Source of the DNA: Synergistaceae bacterium OttesenSCG-928-I11
Lineage (GTDB): Bacteria > Synergistota > Synergistia > Synergistales > Synergistaceae
Assembly (NCBI GenBank): GCA_030266365.1
Contig: JAJDHV010000010.1
Coordinates: 1 to 35,329 of the forward strand
Direction: 5' to 3'
DNA length: 35,329 nt
Numbering within the stretch: the first letter of the stretch is position 1; every line of letters begins with the position of its first letter. The translations under genes and the position numbers were made by a program. This document shows positions 1-32,231 of this stretch, one piece after another. The notes beneath the pieces were generated by a model. That model did not search any database. It was not told where the DNA came from and was given only the letters and a program-made list of their open reading frames with translations.

Positions 1-467
1 ATCCTGCACCGGGCGATCGTTCGCGCAAGTTCGGGCGACATGGTCTCGTACCGGGAGAGGATTTCGGCTGCGAGCGACTCGACCGCATCCGGGTCGACCC
101 GGGCCGCGCGCGGCGGCGCCTTCGGTCCGGAACGGCGCGGCGCGTGCGCACCCGGCTTTCTCGCAACGCTTCCCAGCTCGACGCGGATGTCCCGCAGGTC
201 GATGCGCGCACCGGTGCGGATTTTGCGGACGAGCGCGCTTTTTTTGAAGTTCAGGTCCTGCAGCACGGCCGGGCCGTCCGCCGTCACGACGAGGACGTCC
301 CCCTCCAGGGCATGCGGCGCCGTGCGGAGCGCGAGGCGGTCGCCGACGAGGGCGCGCCACTCCCGCTCGAGGGCGGAGAGCGTCATGCAGAGCGAGGTCA
401 CAGTCGTCACCGACGGGACGGAGAGAAGGTCGTAGATGGGTCGTCCGGTCGATTTGTCGCCCTTCAT
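1..467 (-). CDS. DUF721 / DciA-like protein, 3' end cut by window
   Basis: The frame opens at an ATG at 467 that overlaps the mnmG stop (ATGA at 464-467) and stays open to the window edge, giving about 155 residues. The protein begins MKGDKSTGRPIYDLL. A central stretch (about residues 30-95) has the pattern of DUF721: a conserved W (EREWRALVG), then LVVTADGPAVLQDLNFKKSALVRKI and an ...IRVELG strand. DUF721 includes DciA, the ancestral loader or operator of the replicative helicase DnaB, and such genes often sit near recF, gyrB and dnaA. The position at the end of a dnaA-dnaN-recF-mnmG run supports that role, but helicase interaction is inferred, not visible. A basic, proline- and alanine-rich linker (about 105-125) precedes a C-terminal part whose end lies outside the window. 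Confidence 0.72.
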   Translation of the reverse strand, partial: MKGDKSTGRPIYDLLSVPSVTTVTSLCMTLSALEREWRALVGDRLALRTAPHALEGDVLVVTADGPAVLQDLNFKKSALVRKIRTGARIDLRDIRVELGSVARKPGAHAPRRSGPKAPPRAARVDPDAVESLAAEILSRYETMSPELARTIARCR

Positions 468-2356
468 TCGTCCGCCGCTCCCCCGCGCATCCGCTCGATC
501 GTGATCTGGATCAGCTGGATGTCGACGTTGTTCACGCCCGGCACACGGGAGGCCTGCCCCAGCGTGCGGGGGGCAGTGCGCGCCAGTTTTTCCGCCGCCT
601 CCGCGGAGAGGCCGCTCAAATTCGCGTAGTCGATCCCCTCCGGGATGACGAGGCGTTCCATCGACGAGAGCCGCCGGACCCTGCGGTTCTCGCGCTCCAC
701 GTAGCCCGCGTACTTCGCCTCCGTCTCGATCTTCGTCCCGAGCTCGGGGTCGAGGTCCGAGTCGATCAGGCGCGTCAAATTTTTCCAGGAAATCTCGGGG
801 CGCAGGAGCAGGTCGATCGCGGCGACCGGTTCGGACAATGGGGACGAGTCCATCTCCCGCAGCAGCGCGTTCGTGCGATCGTTCGCGGGCACGCGCAGTT
901 GCGAGATGCGCTCGCGCTCCTGTTCCAATGCCCGACGTCGCTCACAAATTTTTTTCCAGCGCGCGTTGCCGAGCAAGCCGATCTCGTGTCCGATTTCGCA
1001 CAGCCGGTCGTCCGCGTTGTCGTGCCGCATGACGAGCCGGTACTCGCAGCGGCTGGGGAGCATGCGGTACGGTTCGTCCGTGCCGCGCGAGACGATGTCG
1101 TCGATCAGGACGCCGATGTAGGCCTCTTCGCGCCCGAGCACGAGGGGTTCGTCGCCGCGAAGCGAGAGCGCCGCGTTGATCCCCGCCATCAGGCCCAGAG
1201 CCGCCGCCTCCTCGTAGCCGGACGTGCCGCAGATCTGCCCCGCGTAGTACAGGCCGCGCACGACGCGCGTCTCCAGCCACGGCTCGAGTTGCGTCGGGAC
1301 GACGTAGTCGTACTCGATGCCGTAGCCCGGCCGGAGCATGAGGGCGTCTTCGCAGCCGGGGAGGCTGTGGACCATCTCGAGCTGGACGTCGGGCGGCATC
1401 GACGTCGAAAAATTCTGCATGTAGACCTCGCGGCTGTTGCGCCCGACCGGTTCGAGGAAGATCGGGTGCGACTCCCGTTCGGGGAATTTCAAGATTTTGT
1501 CATCGATGGAGGGGCAGTAGCGCGGGCCCTTCGACGCGAGCGCCCGCGTCGCGAGCGGCGAGCGGTCGAAGGCGCCGCGGACGATCTCGTGCGTCCGCGC
1601 GTTCGACCGCGTGATACCGCAGACGTAGCCCTCGTAGGCGCGCTTCTCGCTCCAGTGCGAGAAGGCCTCCGGCTCGGGGTCGCTCGGCTGGAGTTTGAGC
1701 GACGCCCAGTCGACGCTGTTGCGGCAGATTCGGGGCGTCGTATCCGTCCGAAAGCGCCCGAGTTCGATCCCCGCCAGGATCAGCGAGTCGGAGAGGTTGC
1801 CGGCCGGCACTTGCCCCAGCGGGCCGGAGGGGAAGTGGACGAGGCCCATGTGCACGACCCCGCGCAAGTAGGTCCCGCTCGCCACGACGACCCGGGCCGC
1901 GGAAAATTTCTCGCCGGTTGCTGTGACCACGCCCGCAACGCGCCCGTCCTCCACGACGATCTCCGTCGCCATCCCCTGATAGACGTAGAGGTTCGGGACG
2001 GCGGCGAGTGCGCGTTCGTAGTGGGCTGCGTAGTCCCGGAGGTCGCACTGTGCGCGCAGCGTGCGGACGGCGTGCCCCTTCGACGTGTTGAGCCAGCGCA
2101 GGTGCAGCGTAGAGGCGTCGGTCGCGAGCGCCTGTTCGCCGCCCAGCGCGTCGAGCTCGCGCACGAGGTTGCCCTTCGCGGGGCCGCCGATGGAGGGATT
2201 GCACGGCATGAGCGCCGTGTTGTCGAGATTGTGGTTCAGCATCAGCGTGCGGCATCCCATGCGCGCGGCGGCGAGCGCCGCTTCGCATCCGGCGTGTCCG
2301 CCGCCGACGACGACGACCTCGTAGTCGTAATTTTGGTTTTTTTCACTCGTGCTCAT
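464..2356 (-). CDS. mnmG: tRNA uridine-5-carboxymethylaminomethyl modification enzyme MnmG (GidA)
   Basis: A 630-residue FAD protein of normal family length. With MnmE it installs the carboxymethylaminomethyl group on wobble U34 of certain tRNAs in the cytoplasm. The N-terminal dinucleotide-binding motif is VVVGGGHAGCEAA (about residues 15-27). The family signature MPCNPSIGGPAKG follows, with the conserved cysteine at residue 53. The second conserved cysteine lies in GPRYCPSIDDK, followed by the LEPVGR region. TSGYEEAAALG and a C-terminal helical domain (KYAGYVERE, then IPEGIDYANLSGLS) complete the fold. The ATG overlaps the recF stop (ATGA at 2353-2356) and the stop overlaps the next gene's start, so translation is probably coupled along recF-mnmG-DUF721. 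mnmE is not in the window. Confidence 0.97.
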   Translation of the reverse strand: MSTSEKNQNYDYEVVVVGGGHAGCEAALAAARMGCRTLMLNHNLDNTALMPCNPSIGGPAKGNLVRELDALGGEQALATDASTLHLRWLNTSKGHAVRTLRAQCDLRDYAAHYERALAAVPNLYVYQGMATEIVVEDGRVAGVVTATGEKFSAARVVVASGTYLRGVVHMGLVHFPSGPLGQVPAGNLSDSLILAGIELGRFRTDTTPRICRNSVDWASLKLQPSDPEPEAFSHWSEKRAYEGYVCGITRSNARTHEIVRGAFDRSPLATRALASKGPRYCPSIDDKILKFPERESHPIFLEPVGRNSREVYMQNFSTSMPPDVQLEMVHSLPGCEDALMLRPGYGIEYDYVVPTQLEPWLETRVVRGLYYAGQICGTSGYEEAAALGLMAGINAALSLRGDEPLVLGREEAYIGVLIDDIVSRGTDEPYRMLPSRCEYRLVMRHDNADDRLCEIGHEIGLLGNARWKKICERRRALEQERERISQLRVPANDRTNALLREMDSSPLSEPVAAIDLLLRPEISWKNLTRLIDSDLDPELGTKIETEAKYAGYVERENRRVRRLSSMERLVIPEGIDYANLSGLSAEAAEKLARTAPRTLGQASRVPGVNNVDIQLIQITIERMRGGAADE

Positions 2357-3429
2357 AAAAATTTGCCTTTCTGCATGCGATACGTTTCGATCCCCTCGAA
2401 ATCGATTGGGTCCGCGCTTGCGGCGAAAACCTGACAGCCGGTCGAGAGGAGCGCGTCGAGCGTGGCGTCCCTTCCGTCCCCGTCGAGCTCGGACGCGATT
2501 TCGTCGAAGAGGAGGACCGGCTTTCGCGCGAGGCTCCGTTCCACAATGTACGCCGAAGCCAGGACAAGTGCGCTCGCGGCCCTTCGGCTCTGTCCTCTGG
2601 AGAGGGAGACGGCGGCCTCGCGCGTCCCGCAGATCAAGCGGAGATCGTCCCGCTGCGGCCCGACGAGCGGAACCCCCGCCGCCCGCTCTCCGGCATTTTT
2701 TTCGGAAAGCGCTTTTCGGAAATCCGTCAGCGGATCGTCGTCGAGTCCGCCGCCCCCGCGCACGAAAGCGACGCTCATCGGCGCGGCGAGGAGGTCCGAA
2801 AATCGCGCAAGCGCGTCCTCGAGCAGCCGAGAAAGCTCCTCCCTCGCCGTCCAGAGCCAGGCCCCGAACGGGAGGAGCGTTCGATTCGCGACCCGGGTGT
2901 CGTCCCTCCTTCGAAGGAGCACGGATTTCTGGCGCAGCGCCTTTTTGTAGTCGTGCAGCCGCCGCGCGTACGAAGGGCTGATCAGCGACCCGACCCGGTC
3001 AAGCAGGCCCCTCCTGTGCGACGCGGATCCCCTGAGAAGCGAAAGGTGATCGGAGAGGAAGGGCAGGACGGGGACTTTGCTCCGCATGGCAGAGGCACTG
3101 ACGCTTTTTTCGTTCAGTTTCAGCGAACCGCGCAGGCCGACGGACAGAAACAATTCGGCGCTCTCCTCGCCGGATACCCCGGCCCAGAGAGACGCCCTGT
3201 CGTGCCTGTCGTCGGTTTTGTCGCTGCCGTCCGCTTTCCACGTTACGAGAGCGGACATCTTCGTCCCCTTTTCCAGCGGCCCCCACCCCGATATGAGGTT
3301 GAGCCCCTCCAGAAAATTCGTCTTTCCGGCGCCGTTGCGCCCGGTAATCAAATTGAAGCCCGGCGACCAGAGGAGCCGCTCGGGCATCAGGTTGCGAAAG
3401 TTGTAAAAGTAACTGCTCTTAAAGTACAT
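2353..3429 (-). CDS. recF: DNA replication and repair protein RecF
   Basis: SMC-like ATPase of 358 residues that helps load RecA at single-strand gaps. Starting at the ATG at 3429 (MYFKSSYFYNFRN), the Walker A GRNGAGKT is at residues 30-37. The ABC-type signature LSRGQSRRAAS and Walker B PVLLFDEIASELD lie near the C terminus, the normal order. The frame is open further upstream to 3585, but that part lies inside dnaN and has no RecF similarity. The chosen start has a purine-rich GGGGGAG just before it and overlaps the end of dnaN by 11 bases. The signature is slightly unusual (SRGQSRR instead of the common SxGQ[QR]R), but all catalytic motifs are present. Confidence 0.95.
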   Translation of the reverse strand: MYFKSSYFYNFRNLMPERLLWSPGFNLITGRNGAGKTNFLEGLNLISGWGPLEKGTKMSALVTWKADGSDKTDDRHDRASLWAGVSGEESAELFLSVGLRGSLKLNEKSVSASAMRSKVPVLPFLSDHLSLLRGSASHRRGLLDRVGSLISPSYARRLHDYKKALRQKSVLLRRRDDTRVANRTLLPFGAWLWTAREELSRLLEDALARFSDLLAAPMSVAFVRGGGGLDDDPLTDFRKALSEKNAGERAAGVPLVGPQRDDLRLICGTREAAVSLSRGQSRRAASALVLASAYIVERSLARKPVLLFDEIASELDGDGRDATLDALLSTGCQVFAASADPIDFEGIETYRMQKGKFL

Positions 3430-4603
3430 CTCCCCCGGATTCCACGCTCTCCTCCGCGATATCTTCGGAAGACGGCGCTTCCTCCCCGCCGATCTCGACC
3501 GGCGCGATGAGGCACAGAAACGAGTCGGAGTCGCGCGCGCGAACAAGCATGTGCCCCTCCTGCCCGTTGAAGAAAAGGCCCACAATCGGTTCGTCCAGGA
3601 CCTTCACGGCGTCGTGGAAGAAACGCGTGTTGAAGCCAATCAGGATGGGCTCCCCCTCGACCTCGCAGGGCACGTTTTCGACCGCCTCGCCGAACTCCGG
3701 CGCGCGGCCCGACATCGTGCTCTCCCCCTCCGGGCGGAAGTTGACGATGATGATCCGGTTGTAGTCGCGGACGACGACGTCGACGCGCTCGATGGACGCG
3801 ATCAGGTCCGAGCGGTCGACGAGCACCTTCGTCTTGTGCGACGTGGGGAGGATCTTGGCGTACGGGGGGAATTTGCTCTCCACCCTGCGGATCGCGAACT
3901 CCATCCCCTCCGCGACGAAGTAGGCCTGCGAGTCGTCGTACAGCATGCGAAGGCTCATATCCGCGTCGAGCATGCCCAGGATCCGAAGGAGTTCCTTGAG
4001 GCCTTTCATGGGGAGAAGGAGGTTCTCGGGGGACTCGCCCCGCTCCTCGACCTCGCATTTTGCGATCGCGAGCCTGCGCTTGTCCGTCGACACGACGTTC
4101 ATCCCCGCCTCGTCGATCTCGAAGAGCGCGCTGGAGAGGTACTGCGGGTACTCGTCCCCAGACGACGCGCAGAGCGAGCCGCGGTCGATCGTCCGGATCA
4201 GGTCGGAAATTTTGAGCGAACAGAAGAGTTTCGCCGAAGCGGAGGAGGGAAGTTTCGGAAAATCGCCGACCGGATAGGTCGTGAAGCGATAGCGGCTCTT
4301 GCCCGCCGTCATGACGGCACGGCCGTCCTCGATGACGAGCGTGAACTCGGGCGATCCCGCTTTTTTGAAGAGGTCGGTCACGCCCTTCAGGGGGATGACC
4401 GCCTCCCCCGGTTCCACGACCGTGACGCCCTTCGCCTGGCAGACGATCGAGGTCTTGATGTCCGTCGCCTGCATCTCGACGTCGCCCTCGAAGGCCTTGA
4501 GGCGGATCGTGGAGAAGATGTTCATGGATCCGGACGTTCCTGCGCTGCGCTCCGTCAGGCTCCAGCTCTTTATGAATGTCGCTTTGTCGATGATGATTTT
4601 CAT
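3419..4603 (-). CDS. dnaN: DNA polymerase III beta subunit (sliding clamp)
   Basis: A 394-residue clamp protein starting MKIIIDKATFIKSWSLTER, typical of DnaN. Internal landmarks are VPLKG-like VIPLKGVTDLFKKAG, FTTYPVGDFPKLP, the second-domain pattern YPQYLSSALFEIDEAGMNVVSTDKRRLAIAK, and VESKFPPYAKILP in the third domain. An ATG eight codons upstream (4627) is possible, but the ATG at 4603 is preceded by GGAGGG at a good distance and begins where the family begins. The usual C-terminal LMP(M/V)R end is replaced by a longer acidic tail (SFLCLIAPVEIGGEEAPSSEDIAEES...), a modest oddity. It lies between the origin element and recF in the classic dnaA-dnaN-recF order. Confidence 0.95.
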   Translation of the reverse strand: MKIIIDKATFIKSWSLTERSAGTSGSMNIFSTIRLKAFEGDVEMQATDIKTSIVCQAKGVTVVEPGEAVIPLKGVTDLFKKAGSPEFTLVIEDGRAVMTAGKSRYRFTTYPVGDFPKLPSSASAKLFCSLKISDLIRTIDRGSLCASSGDEYPQYLSSALFEIDEAGMNVVSTDKRRLAIAKCEVEERGESPENLLLPMKGLKELLRILGMLDADMSLRMLYDDSQAYFVAEGMEFAIRRVESKFPPYAKILPTSHKTKVLVDRSDLIASIERVDVVVRDYNRIIIVNFRPEGESTMSGRAPEFGEAVENVPCEVEGEPILIGFNTRFFHDAVKVLDEPIVGLFFNGQEGHMLVRARDSDSFLCLIAPVEIGGEEAPSSEDIAEESVESGGDVL

Positions 4604-4639
4604 GCCTGCAATCCCTCCGTTGTTCACAGCGCTTCTCTG

Positions 4640-4707
4640 ATTGGTTCTATATATTATATATAAAAAATAAGCAGTAATAGTAGTAGGGGCTGTGGATTCG
4701 TGGAAAA
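4640..4707. other. putative oriC unwinding element: AT-rich DUE, DnaA-trios, GC clamp, DnaA box
   Basis: In the dnaA-dnaN spacer, 4647-4670 is almost pure A/T (a TATATATTA-like stretch and an A-run). It is followed by CAG TAA TAG TAG TAG (4672-4686), GGGC (4687-4690), a DnaA-box-like TGTGGATTC (4691-4699) and a second degenerate box (CGTGGAAAA, 4699-4707). Read from dnaA toward dnaN this gives boxes, GC cluster, CTA/TTA trios, AT-rich DNA. That is the order and orientation of the DnaA-trio element known from Bacillus subtilis, where DnaA filaments on the trios melt the origin. The arrangement is seen directly; function as the unwinding site is inferred. Confidence 0.75.
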
Positions 4708-4741
4708 CGTATCCGAGATGTCATGGATCGCGGGTTTGCGA

Positions 4742-4886
4742 TGTGGAAAACCCTCTCGGGGAGTCATCCGGGTTATTCACATTTTCCACAGAAACGATGT
4801 GGAAATACGGGAATTTTACGGATCGAAACACGACTGTCCACACGAAAAAAGCGGTTTTCTACATCTTGTTTCGGATGTTATCCACA
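4742..4886. promoter_or_regulatory. DnaA-box cluster between dnaN and dnaA
   Basis: Sites close to the DnaA-box consensus TTATCCACA are TGTGGAAAA (4742-4750), TTATTCACA (4773-4781), TTTTCCACA (4782-4790), TGTGGAAAT (4799-4807), CTGTCCACA (4834-4842) and a perfect TTATCCACA (4878-4886). The last lies inside the 3' end of dnaA, where it encodes part of the terminal VDN. The boxes are on both strands, two of them adjacent, next to the unwinding element. Together they look like the incC-type half of a bipartite origin. Confidence 0.75.
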
Positions 4887-6181
4887 ATCGTTTTGACCCG
4901 GATGTTGCTCTTCATCATCTCCTCGATCTTCTTGCACGCGTGCAGGACCGTCGTGTGGTCCTTCTTGTTGAACGCGTACCCGATCTGCTGAAGGCTGTCG
5001 CTCAAGAGGTCGCGCGCGAGGTACATCGCGATCTGGCGGGCGAGCGCCAGGTCGGACGTCCGTTTCGAGGAGGTGAGGTCCTCCACGGTGATGCCGAAGC
5101 TGTCCGCGGTCAGTTGCTGGATCTGGTCGATGCTGATGTTGCCGCGCGTGCCGTGGCGGAGGATGTCCTTGAGCCACACGCCCAGATTCTCCGTGCTCAT
5201 CGGCTCGGCGTTGATGTTCGAGTACGCGACGACGCGGTTTAAGGCGCCCTCCAGTTCGCGGATGTTGCTCGGGATGTTCTGCGCGAGAAAGAGGATGACC
5301 TCCTCCGGGATGCGGTAGTCCTTGAACTCGGCTTTTTTCTGCAGGATCGCGACCCGCGTCTCGAGGTCCGGCTGCTGGATGTCCGTAACGAGTCCCCACT
5401 CGAAGCGGGAGACGAGGCGCTCTTCGACGCCCTTGATGTCCTTCGGCGGTCGGTCTGAGCTGATGACGATCTGTTTTTTGGCCTCGTGGAGGCTGTTGAA
5501 CGTGTGGAAAAATTCCTCCTGCGTGCCCTCCTTGTCGCCGATGAACTGGATGTCGTCGATCAGCAGGATGTCGAGGTTGCGATAGCGCGCGCGGAACTCC
5601 GTCGTGCTGTTCGTCTTGATCGACGAGATCATGTCGTTCGTGAACTTCTCCGAGCTGACGTAGAGAATGCGCGCGTTCTGGATGTGACTCTCCATGTGAT
5701 GCGCGATGGCGTGCATGAGGTGCGTCTTGCCGAGGCCGACGCCCCCCCAGATGAAGAGCGGGTTGTACGCCACGCCCGGCGACTCGCTGACTGCGAGGCT
5801 CGCCGCGTGCGCGAGACGGTTGGACTTGCCGACGACGAACGAGTCGAAGACGTAATTCGGGTTGAGCCCGTTTCGGTTCTGCGGCGCGCTGGTCCCCTGA
5901 ACGACGCTGCGCGCGCGCTCCTGCTCCTGGATGCCGTTCTCGAGGTGGATGACGACGGCGTCGGCGTAATTTTTCGTCTGAAGAAACGCGAGCAACGGCT
6001 CAATGATCTTCTTCTCCATGTTCTCCTTCGCGAAGGGGTTCGGCACGTCCAGGTTCAGGACGCCGTCCTCTAGGGAAATGGGCAGACAGGTGTTGAGCCA
6101 CATGTCGGACGTGCCGGGGGGAAGAAAATTCCTCGACGAGTTCAGCACGTCCTGCCAGATTGTCTTTAGATCGTTTTTCAA
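4859..6181 (-). CDS. dnaA: chromosomal replication initiator protein DnaA
   Basis: A 440-residue AAA+ initiator that binds DnaA boxes and melts oriC. From the proposed TTG start at 6181: domain I (KNDLKTIWQDVLNSS..., about 1-70), a short linker, Walker A GGVGLGKT at 146-153, Walker B LLIDD at 206-210, sensor-I region IVISSDRPP, and domain IV with the DnaA signature DHTTVLHACKKIEE near the C terminus. The frame is open to an ATG at 6340, but the extra 53 residues (MTKKHHARIW...) are not DnaA-like. A GGATGGGG lies about 8 bases before the TTG; a GTG at 6190 is the next alternative. It is flanked on both sides by DnaA boxes, so autoregulation is likely. Confidence 0.96.
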   Translation of the reverse strand: MKNDLKTIWQDVLNSSRNFLPPGTSDMWLNTCLPISLEDGVLNLDVPNPFAKENMEKKIIEPLLAFLQTKNYADAVVIHLENGIQEQERARSVVQGTSAPQNRNGLNPNYVFDSFVVGKSNRLAHAASLAVSESPGVAYNPLFIWGGVGLGKTHLMHAIAHHMESHIQNARILYVSSEKFTNDMISSIKTNSTTEFRARYRNLDILLIDDIQFIGDKEGTQEEFFHTFNSLHEAKKQIVISSDRPPKDIKGVEERLVSRFEWGLVTDIQQPDLETRVAILQKKAEFKDYRIPEEVILFLAQNIPSNIRELEGALNRVVAYSNINAEPMSTENLGVWLKDILRHGTRGNISIDQIQQLTADSFGITVEDLTSSKRTSDLALARQIAMYLARDLLSDSLQQIGYAFNKKDHTTVLHACKKIEEMMKSNIRVKTIVDNIRNKM

Positions 6182-6312
6182 CAGAAACACCCCATCCGGT
6201 GTCGAACGAACACGACGATATGATGAAAAAAACGGACCGCATTGAAAATGAGAGCGGCGAAACCGTACATTCGCCGCAGTAATATTTACGATCCGAGCAA
6301 AATCCACTCTCC

Positions 6313-6386: not shown

Positions 6387-6690
6387 TTATCCACCAAAGT
6401 TGTCCACTTATCCACAAGTTTCGACGGGGAGATTTGTGGATAGTATGAAGGCGGATTCTCTCTTCACTCACGGGCAAAGCAAGAATGTGAAAAAAATGAA
6501 GTGCGCAAAAAACGAGGCCCACGTCTCAGTGGAAAGTCGTGCAAAGTTATACACGTTTGTGGATAAAAGTAGTGGACAACTTGTAAAGATGATAAAAATA
6601 AGAGAACACGCCCATTCGAAAAAGTCCCGCGAGCATCGATTGCGACGCTCGCGGGACTTTTTTTCGGGAGTGCGGTGGGGTTGTGGATAT
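6387..6690. promoter_or_regulatory. second DnaA-box cluster, upstream of dnaA
   Basis: The gene-free stretch between dnaA and the ECF gene holds TTATCCACC (6387-6395), TTGTCCACT (6400-6408), perfect TTATCCACA (6408-6416), TGTGGATAG (6435-6443), TTATACACG (6547-6555), perfect TGTGGATAA (6558-6566), AGTGGACAA (6571-6579) and TGTGGATAT (6682-6690). The first three point one way and are closely spaced; most of the others point the opposite way. It resembles the incA/incB half of a bipartite origin and would also let DnaA control its own promoter. The last box overlaps the first bases of the ECF gene's stop region. No coding gene is seen in 6341-6689. Confidence 0.75.
6619..6664 (-). terminator. 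rho-independent terminator of the argH-ECF transcript
   Basis: A 14-bp perfect stem (AAAGTCCCGCGAGC at 6621-6634, partner 6647-6660) with a 12-base loop, flanked by A's on the left and T's on the right, so it can work in both directions. It lies just downstream of the minus-strand ECF gene, whose transcript would end here. It also shields the origin box cluster from read-through. Confidence 0.85.
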
Positions 6691-17858: not shown

Positions 17859-20800
17859 GTGTCCGCCTCCTCGCCCCGATCGTTTGAAAAGACCCGCCTT
17901 GCAGCCCTGATTCTCGCAGCTCTCCTCTTTTTTGCCCTCCCGCATGTTGCGTGGGCGAGTCCATTTGCCGTCTCCTCCTTCTCCCCCACCGGAGAGGTTG
18001 CCGGGCCGACTGAAATCCGCATCGTCTTCAACACCGCCGTGGTGAAGAGCGACGAAGTGGGCAAAACCCTTGCCCCGGGCGAGATGCCGCTCACATTTGC
18101 ACCACCCTTGCCTGGGAATGGAAAGTGGTTGGATGCCCTGACTTTTCTTTATCAACCTACATCGGGATATCTGGAGGAGGCGACGGAATATCGCGCGACG
18201 ATCCGGGAGGATCTGAAGGACCTCTCGGGCGCGTCGTTTGCAGGCGACCGGGATTATCGCTTTCATACGCCGCCGTTGCGTCTGTTGGAGGCGCGTCAGA
18301 TCGACTTCGACGTGCGAAACGACTATGTCGATTATGAGTTGCGCTTCTCAACACCGGTGAGTCCCGCTCGTCTGCGTGGCTACACGGAACTTCTCGACGG
18401 GAAGGGACAACCCGTTCCGCACACATACCTTGGAACGCTGGTTACGCAGACGCCGCGCTTGCGCGTGCGCGCGGACGACGGATCGGAGCTTGCCGTAGCG
18501 ATCGAGGCCGGCCTGACGCCAGCGCGCGGCAACCTCGGGCTGAAGGAGCGCGTTTCTCTCACGCTTCGCCGAGATCTCTCCCTGAAAATTGGAAACGCGT
18601 ACGCTGGCAGCGAATATGATGGAAGCTTCCTATATATAGAAACATCCTCACCGGTAGATCTTGAAAAAGCCGCTTCCTTCATCGAAGTCGAACCGAAGAC
18701 GAAGTTGACGTTGGAAGCGTGGGGAGGCAGGCTTCGAATTGGCGGCGATTTCAAGCCGCGCGACCGCGTTCTGCTCACCGTGCGAAAGGGGCTGCCCCCG
18801 ATCGAGGGAGAGGCGCTCGGCGAAGCGTGGTCGCGTGCGTTTATCATCCCCGACGTGGAGCCCTCCCTATCGTTTGAGACGCAGGGGCGCTTTGTCTCGC
18901 CGCTTGGCGAATCCCTGATGTTTCCGCTCTCGACGGTAAATATCGAACGTCTCGACGTCGGCGTAAACCGGGTTTACGACAACAACGTGCCATATGTCAT
19001 GCGTAATTCCTGGCCATACAGCGCCTACGACCTCTCGGAGGAAATCTTCCGAAAGCGCTATACGATTGCCGCGTCCCCGAATGAAAAAATCCGAAATGCC
19101 ATTGATCTGGAAAAAATTCTGGACGGGAAAAAGGGCCTTTTCGAAGTCTACGCGAACAATGCCGGTCACTGGCCCGGCGAGTTCAGGATCGTCAATGTGA
19201 CGGATCTCGGCGGATCGGCGAAAGTATTCGAAAAAGGAATGCTCGTCTGGGTCAACTCCATCTCGCGTGGGAAGCCGGTTTCGGATGCGCGCGTCGACGT
19301 ATATTCGAACAGCAATCAACTTCTGGAGAGCGGCCGCACCGATCGGCAGGGTGTGTGGAAAATCACGCTCGATGCACCGTGGTCCCAGAATCTCAGGCCG
19401 GATCTGGTCGTCATCTCCAAGGGGGACGATACGTCGGTGCTTCGTCTTGAAAACAGTATCTGGAACAGAGGCGCACCGGAGTACGCAGGCGCGCCATACC
19501 CATCGGGTGCGTACCTTGGACTTTGTTACACGCCAAGAGGCGTGTTCCGCCCCGGAGAGCGCGTCCCCATCGGCGTGATTGTACGCGATCGCACACTCGC
19601 GTTGAAAGAACCATTTCCCGTGCAGGTCAAGGTCCGCACCTCGTTGGGGCGGGAATGGGAGACAAAGACGGTGGAATTGTCCGAGCTGGGAATGGCGTCC
19701 ACCGACATCCGGCTTTCTGAAGCCTCGCCAACCGGTTCCTGGCATGCCGGCGTATATATTCCTGGCGAGTCGCGTCCGATTGCCGAGACGTATTTTTTTG
19801 TGGAGGATTTTGCCCCCCCAAGGATCGAAGTCGAAGTAAGCAGTGATGCAAAGGAACTCGTCGGGGAAGAGAATTGCAACGTTTCTCTCTTTGCGCAGTA
19901 CCTTTTCGGCGCACCTGGCGACAGTCTTGCCTATGAGCTGGAAGCAACGTATATTCCCCGGGAATATTCGCATCCCAATTGGACGGGCTACCGCTTCGGT
20001 GACGAGAGAAAAACGTTGACGCCGGAAATGCAAACCGTTGCGAGCGGCATGCTCGATGCAAACGGAACGGTCACGATTTCAGACCTCGACATCCCGCCGC
20101 CCTTCCCCGCCATTCTCGACCTTTCCCTTCGTGCCGGTGTTATGGAGGACAGCGGCAGGTGGGTTTATCGCACCCTCACCATTCCGTACTATCCCGCGGA
20201 TACCCTACTGGGCATTCTCCTTCCACAGGGAACCCTGACATCCGAATCGGATCTCTCATTCGGTTTTGCGTCGATCAAAACGGACGGCAGCCCCTCCTTG
20301 GGGCCTGCCTTCTATACGATCTACAAGCAACTTTCGGCCGTCTCGATCCATGAACGGGATGGCGTGACAAGAGGAGAGCGCAATATTCGATACGAGCCAC
20401 TGGAAGGACACGAAGACGTCCCCGTGACGTTTACCGACGGAAAAGCCGAGATCAAGGCCAACCTCCCAACCGGTGGGGACTATTTGATCGAGTTGACCGG
20501 TCCGGATGAAACGATTTCGACCGCCGCTTCGTTTTATGTCTATGACGCGAGGTGGAATTACGGCGAGGGCGATGGCGTACTCCCCGATGCCTTGACAATC
20601 ACGCTCGACAAACCGCTTTACAGGGTAGGAGAAAAAGTCCGTGGCAGAGTAACGGGCGCTTTCGAAGGCTCTTTGCTCGTCTCGCTCGAAACCGACTCCA
20701 CCCTGCGGCACGAAGTGCTAACGGCGGGCAGTGACGGCGGGACCTTTTCCTTCGACGTCGCGAAAGAAATGGCCCCGAACGCATGGATCACCGCACAATT

Positions 20801-23276
20801 GATCCGACCGGTCCTTCCGGAAGAAGATTGGCGTTCGCACCGTGCGTTCGGCGCCGTGCCTCTGCACGTCGACAACAGCGATCATTCCCTGACGGTCGAA
20901 ATCCAGGGGCCCGCCAAACTTTTTGCGGAGAAGGCGAATGAAATTTCGATTCAACTCAAGGATCATCGGGGAAAGGGCGTCGAGGGCGAAATATCCGTGA
21001 TGCTCGTCGACGACGGTGTTCTGGCGCTGACACGTTTTGAAACGCCGGATTTCTACCGCGCCTACGCGATGCGAAGGGGACTGGCGATCGACGTCTTCGA
21101 CATCTACCGCGATCTCATCCGTCTCTATCCGGAATACCCGACTCCACTTACGCCCGGAGGCGGAATGGCGGAGGACGCCGCGTTCGCAAGAATGCAGCAA
21201 TCCCTCTCGCCCGTGCGCGCCGATCGCTTTCGCGTTCTCACGATCTGTGACGCCGTAAAGACGGACAAGACCGGACACGCGAACCTCACCGTCACGCTTC
21301 CGGAATTCACCGGCAGGGCGCGCCTGATGGCGGTCGCCGTGGCGAAGACGGCTTTCGGTGCCGGAGAGATGCGATATGAAGTAGCGGACGATATCGTGGC
21401 GGACGTTTCGCTTCCAAGGGCGCTCGCACCCGGCGACGTCTTCGATTCGGAGATTCGGATCTTCAACCAGACATCGGCGGATATCGCCGTCTCGATCGAC
21501 CTCTCCATTCAGGGGGCCTTGACGCTTCTCGAAAATGATGGGACGGACTCAACTGGGGCCTCTTATCTGGCAAAGCGGACCGTTCGCATCGACGCGAATC
21601 CAACCGTCATTCCACTTCGAATGAAAGCGAGCGAGGAGGCTGGCGTTGCGGATATCTCGCTCCAAATTACTTTCGATCGCGGTGAAATTCGAAAGACGAA
21701 TCAAATTGCGGTCCGCCCCCCATATCCAAGAATAACGAAAAGCAGGTCGACCTCGCTACCTCCGGGCGGTGTGGAGCGCTTGCTCCTTTCGGACGACTGG
21801 TTCCCCGGTACACGTCGCGGACTTTTGGCCGTCTCCGCACTGCCCGAGGTCACGATCTCCGATCTGGCGAAATTCCTTGTCGGTTATCCCTATCACTGCC
21901 TGGAGCAGACGGTATCGAGCGGATGGGGCATGCTCGCAGCGCCCGACCTCGTTGCCGGGATCGACCCGGCCCTCGCCTCGCCCACGCAGTTGGCGGAATC
22001 GCTGGACGGCAGAATTCGCAGGATTCAGGCAAGTCAGTTGTATAGCGGCGCATTCGCCTTCTGGCCCGGCTCGCCTGCCTCCGATTGGGCGACGGCCTAT
22101 GCGGCGCACTTCCTCGTCGCCTGCGAAATGCGCGGGCTCCAACTCCCTGGCGATATTCTGGCGAACGCATATGCATACCTCCGTCAGGTTTTGGCGCTAT
22201 CGCCCTCCTCGCAGAATGACGCACTCTACGGCCCCGAACTCGCGACGCGCGCCTATATTGCTTATATCATGTCGATTCGCGGCGATGTACCGCACGCCTG
22301 GATGTCCTATTTGCGCGACAACCTGCCGGATATGCCGGCGTACGGCCGCCTTCTCCTGGCAGCGGCATACGCCCGGAGTGGTCAGAAAGACCTCGCGCGC
22401 GCGATGTTGGGGGAAAGCATCCCCGCGATCGATCAGCCCACGGCAATGCAGCAGGAAAAACCGAATTGGGATTCACCGCTTCGCAGTACGGCGCTATCCC
22501 TGTTGGCATGGAACGAAATCGATCCGATGTCCCCTGAAGCCGCAGACGCCGCTACAATCCTGCTCGAAGGACTTCGCGCGAACGATCTCTACACGACGCA
22601 GGAAGCCTCCTTCGCCCTGTTCAGCCTCGCGACGTTCTACGCGCACCAAGAGCAAAGCGGTGAAAGCCGCATCGTCATAAAGAGCGAATCGGGGCGGGTG
22701 CTTTTGACTCAAGAAAAGAACAAAAGTTACAATATTCAGCTACCCCCCGACATCACTTCTCTCGAGGCCCGAAACACCGGCACAGGTACGGGGTATGTCG
22801 CGGTTGTCCTCGACGGCGTCCCAACCGTCGCACCCGAGGCGCGGAACCAGGGAATTCGCGCTTCTGTTGAATATCGCGACTCGTCTGGCACGCGCATCCA
22901 ACCGGGCACATCCGTCACGCGAGGTGAACGCGTCACGGCAACGATCACCCTTGCGCCCCTCTCTGCGGAAATGAAAAATATCGTTGTCACCCTCCCCCTT
23001 GCGGGTGGCCTCGAAGTCGAGAATCCCTGGTTGATGGACGCGCCGAGCGAAGGATCTTACGGCGACGACAACGTATCGGGCGCTCGTGCGGAACTGCGCG
23101 ACGATCGCCTGCTCCTCTTCGTCGACGAGCTTTCCAAACCGTTCACTTGGAGATGCGCCATGCGCGCGGTGACCGCCGGACAATTCCTGCTGCCCCCGAT
23201 CGTTGCGGAGGGAATGTACGCCCCCGGACTGCAAAGCATTGGCGAGACCTCCACGTTGACGATCGTTTCGAAATAG
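17859..23276 (+). CDS. bacterial alpha-2-macroglobulin with thioester motif
   Basis: A 1805-residue exported protein starting at a GTG after AGGGAGTG. The signal peptide ends about residue 33 (VAWA-SP) with no lipobox cysteine, unlike the lipoprotein YfhM of E. coli, so it may be soluble in the periplasm. After macroglobulin-like beta domains (for example VYSNSNQLLESGRTDRQGVWKITLD and the CYTPRGVFRPGERVPIGVIVRDR MG domain) comes the A2M core: SVMLVDDGVLALTRF, TLPEFTGRARLMAVAVAKTAFG. The thioester motif YHCLEQ has Cys1347 and Gln1350. The family traps proteases by a reactive thioester, protecting the cell envelope. pbpC follows after 8 bases, the pairing known from many diderms. Slightly larger than typical (about 1600-1650). 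Confidence 0.93.
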   Translation: MSASSPRSFEKTRLAALILAALLFFALPHVAWASPFAVSSFSPTGEVAGPTEIRIVFNTAVVKSDEVGKTLAPGEMPLTFAPPLPGNGKWLDALTFLYQPTSGYLEEATEYRATIREDLKDLSGASFAGDRDYRFHTPPLRLLEARQIDFDVRNDYVDYELRFSTPVSPARLRGYTELLDGKGQPVPHTYLGTLVTQTPRLRVRADDGSELAVAIEAGLTPARGNLGLKERVSLTLRRDLSLKIGNAYAGSEYDGSFLYIETSSPVDLEKAASFIEVEPKTKLTLEAWGGRLRIGGDFKPRDRVLLTVRKGLPPIEGEALGEAWSRAFIIPDVEPSLSFETQGRFVSPLGESLMFPLSTVNIERLDVGVNRVYDNNVPYVMRNSWPYSAYDLSEEIFRKRYTIAASPNEKIRNAIDLEKILDGKKGLFEVYANNAGHWPGEFRIVNVTDLGGSAKVFEKGMLVWVNSISRGKPVSDARVDVYSNSNQLLESGRTDRQGVWKITLDAPWSQNLRPDLVVISKGDDTSVLRLENSIWNRGAPEYAGAPYPSGAYLGLCYTPRGVFRPGERVPIGVIVRDRTLALKEPFPVQVKVRTSLGREWETKTVELSELGMASTDIRLSEASPTGSWHAGVYIPGESRPIAETYFFVEDFAPPRIEVEVSSDAKELVGEENCNVSLFAQYLFGAPGDSLAYELEATYIPREYSHPNWTGYRFGDERKTLTPEMQTVASGMLDANGTVTISDLDIPPPFPAILDLSLRAGVMEDSGRWVYRTLTIPYYPADTLLGILLPQGTLTSESDLSFGFASIKTDGSPSLGPAFYTIYKQLSAVSIHERDGVTRGERNIRYEPLEGHEDVPVTFTDGKAEIKANLPTGGDYLIELTGPDETISTAASFYVYDARWNYGEGDGVLPDALTITLDKPLYRVGEKVRGRVTGAFEGSLLVSLETDSTLRHEVLTAGSDGGTFSFDVAKEMAPNAWITAQLIRPVLPEEDWRSHRAFGAVPLHVDNSDHSLTVEIQGPAKLFAEKANEISIQLKDHRGKGVEGEISVMLVDDGVLALTRFETPDFYRAYAMRRGLAIDVFDIYRDLIRLYPEYPTPLTPGGGMAEDAAFARMQQSLSPVRADRFRVLTICDAVKTDKTGHANLTVTLPEFTGRARLMAVAVAKTAFGAGEMRYEVADDIVADVSLPRALAPGDVFDSEIRIFNQTSADIAVSIDLSIQGALTLLENDGTDSTGASYLAKRTVRIDANPTVIPLRMKASEEAGVADISLQITFDRGEIRKTNQIAVRPPYPRITKSRSTSLPPGGVERLLLSDDWFPGTRRGLLAVSALPEVTISDLAKFLVGYPYHCLEQTVSSGWGMLAAPDLVAGIDPALASPTQLAESLDGRIRRIQASQLYSGAFAFWPGSPASDWATAYAAHFLVACEMRGLQLPGDILANAYAYLRQVLALSPSSQNDALYGPELATRAYIAYIMSIRGDVPHAWMSYLRDNLPDMPAYGRLLLAAAYARSGQKDLARAMLGESIPAIDQPTAMQQEKPNWDSPLRSTALSLLAWNEIDPMSPEAADAATILLEGLRANDLYTTQEASFALFSLATFYAHQEQSGESRIVIKSESGRVLLTQEKNKSYNIQLPPDITSLEARNTGTGTGYVAVVLDGVPTVAPEARNQGIRASVEYRDSSGTRIQPGTSVTRGERVTATITLAPLSAEMKNIVVTLPLAGGLEVENPWLMDAPSEGSYGDDNVSGARAELRDDRLLLFVDELSKPFTWRCAMRAVTAGQFLLPPIVAEGMYAPGLQSIGETSTLTIVSK

Positions 23277-23292
23277 GGTTGCACGTGAAACA
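23277..23292. promoter_or_regulatory. parS-like site over the pbpC start codon
   Basis: GGTTGCACGTGAAACA matches TGTTNCACGTGAAACA except at the first base. The central CACGTG includes the GTG start of pbpC (23285-23287), and the left arm contains the end of the A2M gene's spacer. Confidence 0.6.
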
Positions 23293-25531
23293 GCAATATA
23301 GCTTGAAGGGAGCAAGGAACGTTTTTGCGGCGGCAGTCTCCGCCGCTGCGCTCCTTGCTCTTTTTGTGCTTTCGTACGAGGCGCGCTTGACGTTTCCGGA
23401 CGTTCGCGAATATGAACGTTCTATCGTCACGCTCGACCGTCATGGAGATATTCTGAATGTCCAACTTTCAGGGGACGACGAGTGGTGTATCCCGGTCTCG
23501 CTCGATAAGATGGGCGCGTGGACGGCGCTGGTCGCGGTGCAGTTGGAGGACAAGCGATTCTACGAACACCGCGGTGTGGACCTCGTCGCCATCTGTCGTT
23601 CCTTTTTTTATAATCTCAAGTCTGGGAAGGTGGTCTCCGGCGCCTCCACGATCACGACGCAGTTGATCCGCATCGCGGATCCGCAGCCACGTACTTACGC
23701 CGCCAAGTTTTCGGAATTTTGGAGAGCGATGCGCCTCGAGTCGAAGATGTCGAAGTCCGAGATTCTGGAACTCTACCTCAACCGCGCGCCATTCGGAGGA
23801 AACATCCGGGGCATCGAGGCGGCGTCGCGCATTTATTTCGACAAGAGCGCGCAATTTCTCTCGCTCTCGGAGAGCGCGCTTCTGATTTCGATCCTCCGCG
23901 CGCCGAGTCGCTATCGCCCGGATCGTCACGCCGAAGAAGCGACGGCACTTCGGGACCGTAGCCTCGCTTTGCTTCACGAACGCGAGCAGATCACAGAGGC
24001 GGCGTTCGAAATCGCCCACTCGGAGGTACCGAATAGCCGTCGATATTTTTTGCCGAAACACGCCGCAATGGCATGTGCGCACGCGGCAAACGCCAAACCA
24101 ACGACACGCGTCCGTTCGACAATCTCTTCTCCGTTGCAACGCATGCTTGAAAAGAACATGGAAAGGGCGTTGACAGTATACCCATTGCAGATCACCGGTG
24201 CGGCGATCATCGCTGACAACACCTCCGGCGAAGTTCTTGCGTATGTGGGAAACGGACGTTTGGGCACAGGGTTGCCCGGTTCTGAAGTCGACTGCGGGGA
24301 CGCAATGCGATCGCCGGGGTCGACGTTGAAACCATTCATTTATGCAGCCGCCTTCGAAAGGGGGCTGCTGACGCCCGCATCCTTGCTCGCGGATACGCCG
24401 TTGGCCTTTCATGGGAGTGCGCCAAGGAATTTCGATCTCTCATACAGAGGCCCCGTTTCAGCCCGGACTGCGCTTGCTTCCTCGCTGAACGCCCCCGCCG
24501 TTCGCGTCCTTCGCCGCCTTGGTTACGCTCAGGCAATCGAGGTTTTGCGTCGCTTCGGTTTCGCGAACATCGAGCGTGAGAGTGGGTACTACCGAGATGC
24601 GCTTGTCCTCGGTGGATGCGAGGTGACGCTTGTGGAATTGGCGTCGGCATATCGCACGCTTGCGCAGGGGGGCATTTATACGCCACTGACATGGACGCTC
24701 GATCCAGAAAAACCGAAACGGATTGCAATATCGCAAGCGGCAAGTTACCTAACGCTCGATATTTTGGAGGATACAGGACGTTTGATTCCCTTGTACCGCG
24801 ATGTCTTTGCCGAAGAAAAACGGAAGGTCGCATTCAAGACGGGGACGTCCCACGGTTTGCGAGATGCGTGGTGTGTCGGTGTAGCGGGAACTTACACCGT
24901 TGCCGTCTGGCTTGGTGTGCCCGAAGGAAAAGGGTCGGAACGGTTGGTCGGTCTCCAGACCGCGGCGCCAATCGTAATGCAGATTTTTCGAGAATTGCCG
25001 AATCCTCAGAGCGCATCATTCGAGATACCCAAAGAAGTTTTCGAGAGAACCGTTTGCGCGATATCGGGCATGTTACTGACGAGAAACTGTCTTCAGCTGA
25101 CGCGCGACATTGCCATCCGCGATGTTTCTTCGCTGGCGCTCTGCGATATGCATCAAAATATCGAGGGAAAAATCGTCACGATCTGGCCGCCCGAAATCGC
25201 GAGTTGGTCTCGAAACAGGAGCGAAAACATATCTCCTCTCTCGTCGATCAAAATCACAAAACCGTTGCCGCGTTCGAGATATCGCCTGGAAATGGGCAAA
25301 GAACATTTGTCCATTTACCTAGCCGCGGAAGGACCGCTTCCACACCACTGGTTTTTGGATGGAAAATTTTTATCCACTGATCGGAACGGCAGCGGGATAT
25401 ATATCGACGTGCCGCGCGGACATCATCTCGTGAGCGTCCTCTCCGGAGAGCAAACCGACCGCACCTCATTTGAAGTTTTGGATGTGTCGAGGCAAAAAAA
25501 GGACACCCCGATAATGGGTGTCCTCGATTGA
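23285..25531 (+). CDS. pbpC: penicillin-binding protein 1C
   Basis: A bifunctional peptidoglycan glycosyltransferase/transpeptidase-like protein of 748 residues anchored by one membrane segment (about 11-30). The GT51 domain has VQLEDKRFYEHRGVD with the catalytic Glu at 88, then GASTITTQL and LELYLNRAPFGGNIRGIEAAS. The penicillin-binding domain has S346-T-L-K349, SSLN, and K518-T-G. The C-terminal about 90 residues (PRSRYRLEMGKEHLSIYLAAEG...HHWFLDGKFL...HLVSVLSGEQ) match the BiPBP_C domain that defines PBP1C. The GTG at 23285 has AGGG six bases upstream and sits 8 bases after the A2M stop. A minus-strand terminator for yigZ is embedded in its last codons. Confidence 0.95.
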   Translation: MKQQYSLKGARNVFAAAVSAAALLALFVLSYEARLTFPDVREYERSIVTLDRHGDILNVQLSGDDEWCIPVSLDKMGAWTALVAVQLEDKRFYEHRGVDLVAICRSFFYNLKSGKVVSGASTITTQLIRIADPQPRTYAAKFSEFWRAMRLESKMSKSEILELYLNRAPFGGNIRGIEAASRIYFDKSAQFLSLSESALLISILRAPSRYRPDRHAEEATALRDRSLALLHEREQITEAAFEIAHSEVPNSRRYFLPKHAAMACAHAANAKPTTRVRSTISSPLQRMLEKNMERALTVYPLQITGAAIIADNTSGEVLAYVGNGRLGTGLPGSEVDCGDAMRSPGSTLKPFIYAAAFERGLLTPASLLADTPLAFHGSAPRNFDLSYRGPVSARTALASSLNAPAVRVLRRLGYAQAIEVLRRFGFANIERESGYYRDALVLGGCEVTLVELASAYRTLAQGGIYTPLTWTLDPEKPKRIAISQAASYLTLDILEDTGRLIPLYRDVFAEEKRKVAFKTGTSHGLRDAWCVGVAGTYTVAVWLGVPEGKGSERLVGLQTAAPIVMQIFRELPNPQSASFEIPKEVFERTVCAISGMLLTRNCLQLTRDIAIRDVSSLALCDMHQNIEGKIVTIWPPEIASWSRNRSENISPLSSIKITKPLPRSRYRLEMGKEHLSIYLAAEGPLPHHWFLDGKFLSTDRNGSGIYIDVPRGHHLVSVLSGEQTDRTSFEVLDVSRQKKDTPIMGVLD
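25494..25524 (-). terminator. terminator of the parAB-HIT-yigZ transcript, inside the pbpC end
   Basis: Perfect 8-bp arms GGACACCC (25501-25508) and GGGTGTCC (25516-25523), extendable by one A-T pair. Seven A's (25494-25500) lie on the left, which read as a T-run for minus-strand RNA. On the plus strand the hairpin is not followed by T's, so it works mainly for the minus transcript while encoding KKDTPIMGVLD of pbpC. Confidence 0.85.
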
Positions 25532-26705: not shown

Positions 26706-27611
26706 TTATTCCCTAGGGAATAACTCCTCACTGTTATTTTCCAGGTATTCCAGAAGCAGTTGGACCTGCCATTTTTTCAGGCCCTTGATCAGGAGACCCA
26801 TATTCTTTCGGTTCCCTGCAATGCGGACGGTCAGCTTCAGGTTTTTGTGAATCCGGTCGATCTCGTCCTGAAAATCGGTGGGCATCGCCGCTTTTCTCGG
26901 CAGGGCGGCGTCGATCTTCGCAGCGATTGCGACGTTCCGAACCAGTTGTTCGAGTTGCCGGACGCTCAAGTTTTTTTGGACGGTCGTGTTCGCGAATTCC
27001 AATATTTTTTCGACACTAGAGAGAGAAAGCAAGGCTCTTGCATGGCCCTCTGTAAGCTCGTCGTTTTCGAGCATTGCGATCACGCTCTCCGGCAGTTGAA
27101 GCAAGCGCAGCTTATTCGTCACCGCGGCGCGGCTGATTCCGATTTTTTCGGCGACTTCCTCGTGGGTGAGGGACAGCTTGGCGATCAACTCCTGAATGCC
27201 GAGCGCCACTTCGACGGTGCTTAAATCTTCGCGTTGCAGGTTTTCGACGAGTGCAAGCTCCATCGCCTGCGCATCCGTGATCTCGAGAACGCGTATGGGG
27301 ATTTCCTTCAGGCCCGCCAACTGCGCTGCACGCCAACGACGCTCGCCAGCCACGATCTGATAGCCATTCGACGAAGGACGAACCAGAACCGGTTGAATGA
27401 TGCCATGTTCCGAAATGGAATCGGCGAGGTTCTTGAGCAACTCTTCGTTTATGGTCTTTCGGGGCTGAAAGGGATTGGGGTGCAAATCGAGCGTCGCAGC
27501 CAGTGTTTGCGAAGTCGCTGTCTTTTCTTCGGGATGCAACTCTTGCGGCGCTTCGGGCGAAGCTGGAATCAGCGACGCCAGGCCCTTTCCTAACCCTCTT
27601 TGCTTTGCCAT
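26706..27611 (-). CDS. parB: chromosome-partitioning protein ParB (Spo0J)
   Basis: A 301-residue DNA-binding CTPase that loads at parS and spreads as a clamp. The N-terminal MAKQRGLGKGLASLIP is the typical ParA-contact tail. HPNPFQPRKTI, the CTP motif GERRWRAAQLAGL and ENLQRED follow, then the helix-turn-helix (LTHEEVAEKIGISRAAVTNKLRLLQLP, about 145-170) and a C-terminal dimer region. Its ATG overlaps parA by 22 bases. parS-like sites are present nearby (28420, 25535, 23277, 9075), so ligand and target lie together near the origin. Confidence 0.97.
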   Translation of the reverse strand: MAKQRGLGKGLASLIPASPEAPQELHPEEKTATSQTLAATLDLHPNPFQPRKTINEELLKNLADSISEHGIIQPVLVRPSSNGYQIVAGERRWRAAQLAGLKEIPIRVLEITDAQAMELALVENLQREDLSTVEVALGIQELIAKLSLTHEEVAEKIGISRAAVTNKLRLLQLPESVIAMLENDELTEGHARALLSLSSVEKILEFANTTVQKNLSVRQLEQLVRNVAIAAKIDAALPRKAAMPTDFQDEIDRIHKNLKLTVRIAGNRKNMGLLIKGLKKWQVQLLLEYLENNSEELFPRE

Positions 27612-31500: not shown

Positions 31501-32231
31501 AAGGGACCATCTCCGGCAGCGCGGATTTGACGCTGCGAATCGAAGGGGACTCGACCCGAACCAGTATGCAGGACGGCAGCGGCACTTTTGTGATTCACAA
31601 CGGCGAAATCTCCGGCTTCCCCGGAACGGAAGCCGTCTCGAGCATCATCGGGGGCAGGCCGTTGCGTTTCAGCTCGGCCGCCTTCCCGTTCAGCATCGAC
31701 GGAAAAACCCTGTACCTTCTTCCCGGCACCCGCGTGTCTGCGCCCAGCGACGATCCCGTTTTCAAATACATCATGGCGGACGGAAGCATCGTCATCGAGG
31801 AGAAAAAAATTTCCCTCTCCTGTCTTGGAAACGTCAACGTTCGAGCGCTCAATTCGTTTATCGGCGGATTGCAGAGCCTGGTATCCGCCGTGATGGACAA
31901 TAAGGGAAATACCGATGCCCTCCTGCAAAATTTTCTGGGAGGGGCGCTTTCCGGGTTTTCGCGAAACGAGTTTCGCGACGTCAGTCTCATTGTCAAGGGG
32001 ACGCCCGACGACCTCAATTTCGAGGGTATTGAAATCTCGCAGCCGATGACGTTCGACACAAAGCCCGAAGCGCTGAATCAAGCGACCAGTGGACGCGAAA
32101 CCGAAGAAGAGCGTTTCCGTTTGAAAGTCGAAATTCCCGTGGGACCCGGCGGCGGTCATGGAAGCAATGTCGGCGGCCAGGTCGGTGGTCAGGTTTTCGA
32201 GCAGGCGATCAAGAGTCTCTTCTCGTTCTGA
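28590..32231 (+). CDS. AsmA/TamB-like large envelope protein
   Basis: A 1213-residue protein with one N-terminal membrane anchor (about 8-29, AVAAAFFLLMLVAGFLFLSS). The rest is a long series of alternating beta-strand segments, many with the AsmA-type pattern (LSLSGLTADLDT, GAGDIALKPNVRLKLDVDASGI, GVLTGSADIKGSAADPRFRGDASLSGVRAFG, AEGTISGSADLTLRIEG). The region GTFVIHNGEISGFPGTEAVSSIIGGRPLRFSSAAFPFSIDGKTLYL near 1005-1050 resembles AsmA C-terminal (AsmA_2) segments. AsmA/TamB/YhdP proteins form hydrophobic grooves that carry phospholipids between inner and outer membrane; that role is inferred. GGGGGA precedes the ATG. It supports a diderm host. The terminator is inside the convergent fecCD-like gene. 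Confidence 0.8.
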   Translation: MPVLKRRTIAVAAAFFLLMLVAGFLFLSSSTFYADLVAGKVGDAFQDMGGYDLMIGDLRGNPITGVDATGVRIVHDGVELASADSVEMRLDLASVLSSPKLSRLSLSGLTADLDTVLNHLPKKKKDSSGPPALERLTLHDSKITSPFGVVEVRDLTVLLSEGRYRVDLRGEFFSKPFSLKADIPASDGAMSLRQFAAEWNDMALEATGALSPSLDLSCSAVNLDMDSLVEVLPQLKSTTAQGFYSVEARLRNDAGLTATGEIRSGAGQIWRVPFDDLRTDFDYAENEIVLRDLNARLFGGAASGDAKIAFSAKSTPTLDLDFVASRVNTGDMLDIFPWLEHFAGSVDASCDISGPIDALGGTIRLDAKNVAVYGVNASNASLNARLSKSAAFALSFRASAMGAAIQGAGDIALKPNVRLKLDVDASGISLETLAERFPQIAEAGVDGLGTANVKISGPANALTFDARVSFPSMTAMREYDLKDVAAAFSYGKSGLALTEAKATFNDATLTAVGSSTANLLEGRENLDFNGSLSNLKLENFSNLIPAIGENHLHGTVSGKWSLGGAVADPHVRVSLSAPSLSLLKQVALSNVAAEAAYRDGALEVAAASAKMGSASLSAAGEIVLPMKDKTLAYNIKGSFDDLNPEDFVKMGFVSADLSGDLAGDFRVWSEHGETPSVRVFFKDSHVVYSKIFDVSNLRGSLTLRDGNLHLDRLRTVINTGYISVTGTVGNIVDKEFALEKIPLDLDVSIASADIGRISRLFMPDSKGYQGVLTGSADIKGSAADPRFRGDASLSGVRAFGLFLPIVRINDVSGSLNEIQFPRVRAIVGRGVINGHGSLRKTTDWSASVEASGRSVDIRSLTFSLDRGVRRGIEGTLDFDFKGDGWLHSFEGGGEVRVPTFSAMGIHITDFSAPFWVNEGYVLIEDSSAKGYGGILKAQVAKDLMLSNWGGRVEILSADFASVLKDLMPNAEGTISGSADLTLRIEGDSTRTSMQDGSGTFVIHNGEISGFPGTEAVSSIIGGRPLRFSSAAFPFSIDGKTLYLLPGTRVSAPSDDPVFKYIMADGSIVIEEKKISLSCLGNVNVRALNSFIGGLQSLVSAVMDNKGNTDALLQNFLGGALSGFSRNEFRDVSLIVKGTPDDLNFEGIEISQPMTFDTKPEALNQATSGRETEEERFRLKVEIPVGPGGGHGSNVGGQVGGQVFEQAIKSLFSF

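Follow-up and report, generated by a model that had tools for sequence, protein, structure and literature searches.

Does the row of trinucleotides between dnaA and dnaN in this DNA mark the place where the chromosome opens, and should a Bacillus-like element of this kind surprise us in a diderm lineage? The stretch analysed here, referred to as the window, is a whole contig of 35,329 bases from a 1.85 Mb, 55%-complete genome. The longest dnaA open reading frame reaches 6340, but the likely start is the GTG at 6188-6190, the point at which the alignment of the relatives begins. The dnaN frame extends to 4627, the relatives' DnaN proteins align from about residue 9 of this long frame, and the likely start is the ATG at 4601-4603. 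Since the two genes lie on the same strand and dnaN likely begins at this ATG, the spacer between them is delimited as listed in Table 1. This spacer is very probably the place where the chromosome first opens for copying, and we propose with high confidence that the element within it is the basal unwinding system (BUS) of a bipartite oriC.

The window DnaA is up to 82% identical to that of its relatives, and among solved structures the nearest is that of B. subtilis DnaA (8btg). All genomes of the phylum fall into one supported group in a DnaA tree of 123 rows, and a named Synergistaceae bacterium (L036) is nested within this group, placing the lineage in Synergistota by a name that rests on this single row. 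The lineage also carries an Omp85 protein, which accords with a diderm envelope, and therefore the label "apparently diderm" given to the lineage by a first-pass annotation of this DNA fits.

Table 1. Features of the dnaA-dnaN region, in window coordinates
Feature	Position	Strand	Basis or remarks
dnaN (sliding clamp)	3419..4603	-	PF00712, PF02767, PF02768
dnaA-dnaN spacer, main origin region	4604..4858	-	density of DnaA-box-like sites
AT-rich tract	4643..4668	-	plus strand GGTTCTATATATTATATATAAAAAAT; 23/26 A or T
Six DnaA-trios	4669..4686	-	dnaA sense CTA CTA CTA TTA CTG CTT; plus strand AAG 4669-4671, CAG 4672-4674, TAA 4675-4677 and, on the box side, TAG 4678-4680, TAG 4681-4683, TAG 4684-4686; sequence, simulations
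GC clamp	4687..4690	-	GCCC (plus strand GGGC), between box 2 and trios
DnaA box 2, proximal	4691..4699	-	GAATCCACA in dnaA sense, TGTGGATTC on plus strand
DnaA box 1, distal of tandem pair	4699..4707	-	TTTTCCACG in dnaA sense, CGTGGAAAA on plus strand
Further DnaA boxes, dnaA side of spacer	4742-4750, 4773-4781, 4782-4790	.	box scan
Weaker DnaA boxes, dnaA side of spacer	4798-4806, 4834-4842	.	box scan
dnaA (initiator)	4859..6190	-	PF00308 E 3.9e-73, PF08299 E 4.3e-29; stop at 4859
Second DnaA-box cluster, upstream of dnaA	6387-6395, 6408-6416, 6435-6443, 6558-6566, 6682-6690	.	box scan

Read in the dnaA sense, the spacer runs TTTTCCACG-AATCCACAG-CCC-CTA-CTA-CTA-TTA-CTG-CTT-ATTTTTTATATATAATATATAG, in which a tandem pair of DnaA boxes is followed by a GC clamp, six trios and an AT tract. 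Beyond CTT the reading continues as ATT TTT TATATATAATATATAG, so that the triplets after the sixth trio merge into the AT tract. The first-pass annotation had described AT-rich DNA, CAG-TAA-TAG-TAG-TAG, GGGC and one DnaA box oriented toward the trios, and both its coordinates and its letters are right. All five of its trios are confirmed, but the row counts six, the outermost AAG having been missed, and the single box that it recognised, our box 2, belongs to a tandem pair whose other, co-oriented member, box 1, it had overlooked.

A BUS is expected to contain a DnaA box with at most two mismatches no further than 16 bp from the trios. Here both boxes point toward the trios, box 2 at a distance of 4 bp and box 1 at 12 bp, and each deviates from TTATCCACA by two mismatches, which counts against the BUS reading. 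In place of the minimum of three consecutive in-register 3'-NAN-5' trios there are six, which on the strand predicted to be bound by DnaA read 3'-GAT GAT GAT AAT GAC GAA-5'; the box-proximal trio, expected to be 3'-GAT-5', is CTA in the dnaA sense. The boxes of a BUS, usually a tandem pair, face the trios with 10-13 bp between trios and the better box, and the gap measured here from the upstream box is 12; the AT-rich DNA expected past the trios is the tract of Table 1. Around these elements, DnaA-box-like sites with at most two mismatches number seven in 231 bp of the spacer versus 43 in a 28 kb control (7000-35000). Upstream of dnaA, five boxes with at most one mismatch fall within the 350 bp of the second cluster, as against none in 1-4000, and this second cluster therefore makes the origin bipartite.

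Could the triplet row be a product of chance, or a transcriptional feature of the dnaN leader with no role in origin opening? Promoter elements can sit in AT-rich DNA upstream of genes, and the loose published pattern (five or more NTN) is found elsewhere in the window too, with seven matches versus 0.37 expected, four of the seven being the spacer element itself in sliding registers. With seven matches the loose pattern is less selective and, taken alone, weaker evidence. We therefore defined a strict pattern, consisting of a box with at most two mismatches, a gap of 2-16 and at least five triplets of the form [CT]T[ATG]. Its single site on both strands of the 35 kb window is the spacer element, and first-order Markov simulations never produced it, either for the window (60 runs) or for the spacer alone (5000 runs), bearing out the earlier claim that such a row beside a GC clamp is unlikely to arise by chance.

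The same question was put to relatives by reading the dnaA-dnaN region of 29 genomes of the family and order plus 60 more from the phylum, of which 87 could be evaluated, L175 and L192, both among the 60, being left out as a contig end cuts the 3' side of their dnaA. Boxes, clamp and trios were found in the spacer of 85 of these 87, an exact count that leans on the score used to scan the 60, which rewards trio-like triplets; in this second set the dnaN side outscored the opposite side of dnaA in every case. Mean column information was 0.88 bits for the boxes and 0.83 for trios 1-6, compared with 0.27-0.28 for the upstream spacer. It was likewise 0.83 bits for the clamp (columns -3 to -1), in which C at -1 is kept in 25 of 29 sequences. 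Trio 1 is [CT]TA in 28 of the 29 aligned sequences (CTA in 25, TTA in 3), and 26-28 of the 29 retain T, C, A and C at the box 2 columns -10, -8, -7 and -6. The box matching box 1 is conserved in the relatives, 12-13 bp from trio 1. A register blind to central bases, which used only positions 1 and 3 of each trio, admitted 83 of the 87 sequences, and the box-to-trio gap was 12-13 bp in 81 of them, in agreement with the published peak of 10-13 bp (PMC8287927). The trios thus hold their distance from the box in relatives whose DnaA identity is down to about 50%, which argues against a chance or transcriptional origin of the row. Non-conserved trios, which the first-pass annotation had named as grounds for abandoning its reading, were not what the alignment of the phylum returned: trios, spacing and boxes are conserved across it.

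The exceptions are few. One genome, G017, has a dnaA-dnaN spacer of only 54 bp and was considered as a refutation of conservation, which we rejected as boxes, clamp and trios were found about 440 bp upstream of dnaA (locus L085, contig C39). To judge from its sequence, the BUS element of this genome has moved as a unit, a natural relocation. Here the trios have travelled together with the boxes away from dnaN, a further point against a feature of the dnaN leader. Together with the strict row's absence from the simulated windows and its fixed box distance, it leaves the chance or transcriptional reading largely refuted and, in our estimate, highly improbable. In a second genome with a short spacer (64 bp; L101, G011 contig C9) no recognisable trios were found in either flank of dnaA or by a pattern search of the genome that recovered the controls G000, G017 and G174. 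This genome has dnaA and a box cluster upstream of it, and its trios may be divergent, misassembled or lost. The trios of L099 are weak.

The GC skew of the window itself, a contig of 35 kb in a genome that is 55% complete, does not suffice to place the origin and shows no usable switch. Two relatives with long contigs were more informative. On the 2.0 Mb contig of G032, where dnaA lies at 1.072 Mb, the lowest cumulative skew falls between the points sampled at 1.02 and 1.12 Mb. On the 2.4 Mb contig of G065 the sign of the skew changes around dnaA (2.284 Mb), from negative to positive. An origin mapped away from this locus would have spoken against the initial interpretation; in both relatives the GC-skew origin falls at dnaA. 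The interpretation that the layout is that of the Bacillus basal unwinding system is thus supported by conservation across the phylum and by GC skew in two relatives.

The initiator itself carries what this system requires. B. subtilis Asn187, Ile190, Ile193, Arg202 and Glu228 capture the bases of the trios and Arg264 is the arginine finger (PMC10721633, PMC8287927). In the alignment with 8btg all six positions are identical in the window DnaA (residues 235, 238, 241, 250, 276 and 312 of P0001). By analogy with B. subtilis and with Gram-negative DnaA proteins studied in vitro (PMC8287927, PMC10721633), two DnaA molecules would dock via domain IV on the tandem boxes at 4691-4707, and their AAA+ domains would extend as an oligomer across the GC clamp to reach one strand, where each protomer would take one 3'-GAT-5' trio and capture its first two bases. 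The AT tract, likely the DNA opened first, would then open and DnaB helicase would be loaded there. The present analysis contributes the layout, its above-chance occurrence, the conserved spacing, the coincidence with GC skew in two relatives and the identity of the DnaA residues; strand binding, oligomer growth, opening and helicase loading are presumed from the other species.

The spacer might instead be opened in the manner of E. coli, where DnaA would hold the AT tract via TTATT-like motifs with the help of a bending protein, leaving the trios a supportive role. In T. maritima DnaA can bind without the trios adjacent to box 1, and these do no more than stimulate opening (PMC10316083), and in the window ATTTTTTAT and ATATTATATA stretches do come downstream of the trios. 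However, the element that T. maritima cannot do without consists of TAG repeats in a row, and in the window it is the TAG repeats that are the conserved part. Relatives are AT-rich at the position of the window tract, but across the phylum this tract is conserved in composition rather than in sequence, whereas the trio bases themselves are kept. We consider an E. coli-type opening unlikely, though less remote than the chance reading, and retain the BUS as the preferred interpretation.

As in B. subtilis, the element lies between dnaA and dnaN and has co-oriented boxes in tandem, a short GC spacer, a row of trios with TAG on the box side and an AT tract beyond; a second box cluster upstream of dnaA and identical base-capture residues in DnaA are shared as well. 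Box 1 is the counterpart of Bacillus box 6 and box 2 that of box 7, yet box 6 matches the consensus whereas both window boxes deviate by two bases. The order of the trios is different as well, the window plus strand reading AAG-CAG-TAA-TAG-TAG-TAG. H. pylori, like the window's lineage, is a diderm and has a tested BUS, whose trio set (TAG/TAA/CAG/AAT) the window set (TAG, TAA, CAG, AAG, AAT) resembles, although it belongs to another phylum and the likeness is drawn from the trio set. TAG repeats are bound single-stranded by DnaA in the T. maritima oriC (eTrio, TAG x3); there the repeats lie beyond a supportive box-proximal trio, whereas the TAG run of the window directly follows the clamp. In the oriC DUE of E. 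coli AT-rich DNA is likewise opened by DnaA, but that origin lies apart from dnaA and scored weakly for BUS in the published survey.

A BUS has been predicted in the origins of 1755 of 2070 species (85%), and it works with DnaA of H. pylori, S. elongatus and D. radiodurans, mutations of the H. pylori BUS being not recoverable in vivo (PMC8287927). As the system is already published as broad and as functional in Gram-negatives, a Bacillus-like BUS in a diderm is expected. Thus the element put forward by the first-pass annotation is real, but the surprise that it implied is not new (PMC8287927), and the window offers a well-supported yet expected example. Among the papers searched none pairs Synergistetes with the DnaA-trio, although the phylum may have been included earlier in the species list of PMC8287927. 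What is gained is a well-defined BUS with phylum-wide conservation now extended to Synergistota, a diderm phylum, in support of the view that the BUS is ancestral.

A modest new point comes from the central base of the trios. Cytosine shares the amine read by Asn187 and can replace the central A in B. subtilis (PMC10721633), and trios without a central adenine were already suspected (PMC8287927). In the 83 phylum sequences of the blind register the central bases T, G, A and C (dnaA sense; A, C, T and G on the bound strand) were counted 253, 48, 20 and 11 times over trios 2-5; trio 1, for which the register admits only CTA or TTA, was left out. As the sequences are related and not independent, the counts are to be read as descriptive. 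An earlier register had favoured central G over A or C, and the recount in the blind register gave the same result. The corresponding counts in a comparison set of named, mostly Bacillota sequences were 204, 24, 6 and 6, so that C comes second on the bound strand in both sets. The exceptions in Synergistota concentrate in trios 3 and 4, in which bound-strand central A falls to 64% and 59%; it stays at 89% and 93% in the strict trios 2 and 5 and stands at 81% in trio 6. This two-block pattern, of strict trios 2 and 5 against trios 3 and 4 that often carry C, is weaker in the mostly Bacillota set. The window trios have central A only. Judging by these alignments, C in place of A at the trio centre would be common in Synergistota, whose natural origins follow the same A-or-C rule that mutation had revealed for the trio centre in B. 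subtilis.

The same order contains a genus, g24 (G026, G035, G080, G083, G086, G118 and others; loci L212-L217, L223-L242 and L264-L283), in which the DnaA C-terminal domain is present in 3 of 30 near-complete genomes and DnaB in all 30; dnaA appears to have been lost in the other 27. Searches of seven dnaA-negative genomes for the two DnaA domains gave no convincing match: PF00308 gave weak matches only (E ~1e-5 to 1e-9), in three genomes, and PF08299 gave none. Among six dnaA-negative genomes the neighbours of dnaN differ, and the 500 bp before dnaN, inspected by eye, hold no box cluster or row of trios. Thus, in the sampled genomes, the dnaN-side box/trio element is absent where DnaA is absent; a congener, G112, has both dnaA and CTACTACTACTACTGCTT. 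In two sampled dnaA-negative genomes GC skew is flat, with a mean absolute value of 0.024-0.025 and random sign, whereas two dnaA-positive genomes give 0.089-0.091. Cyanobacteria are known in which dnaA has been lost and the skew has collapsed (PMC7198777), and g24 resembles these in its apparent absence of dnaA and its flat skew; no report of dnaA loss in Synergistota was found among the papers searched. If the genus has indeed lost dnaA, the dnaA-dnaN arrangement and the dnaN-side box/trio element, with a flat GC skew, it would replicate without DnaA; apparently dnaA-less, it provides a contrast for asking what replaces the initiator. We lean towards viewing Synergistota as a natural test series for origin opening, in which the BUS of those that keep DnaA, the window included, tolerates C for the central A of the inner trios and one genus would replicate without DnaA. 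Two 1.2 Mb genomes of another genus (G030 and G039; genus g28, family f7), of over 90% completeness, gave no convincing DnaA and no PF02768 match to DnaN, for which an assembly gap, divergence or loss is possible.

The remainder of the window holds several further genes of note. ParB is encoded at 26706-27611 (-), some 20 kb from dnaA, a distance that fits a region near the origin. A large AsmA/YhdP-like protein, typical for diderm envelopes, lies at 28590-32231 (+). A large bacterial alpha-2-macroglobulin (17859-23276, +) adjoins a penicillin-binding protein of the transglycosylase/transpeptidase type (23147-25531, +), and we take this pair (17859-25531) to be the common yfhM-pbpC pairing.
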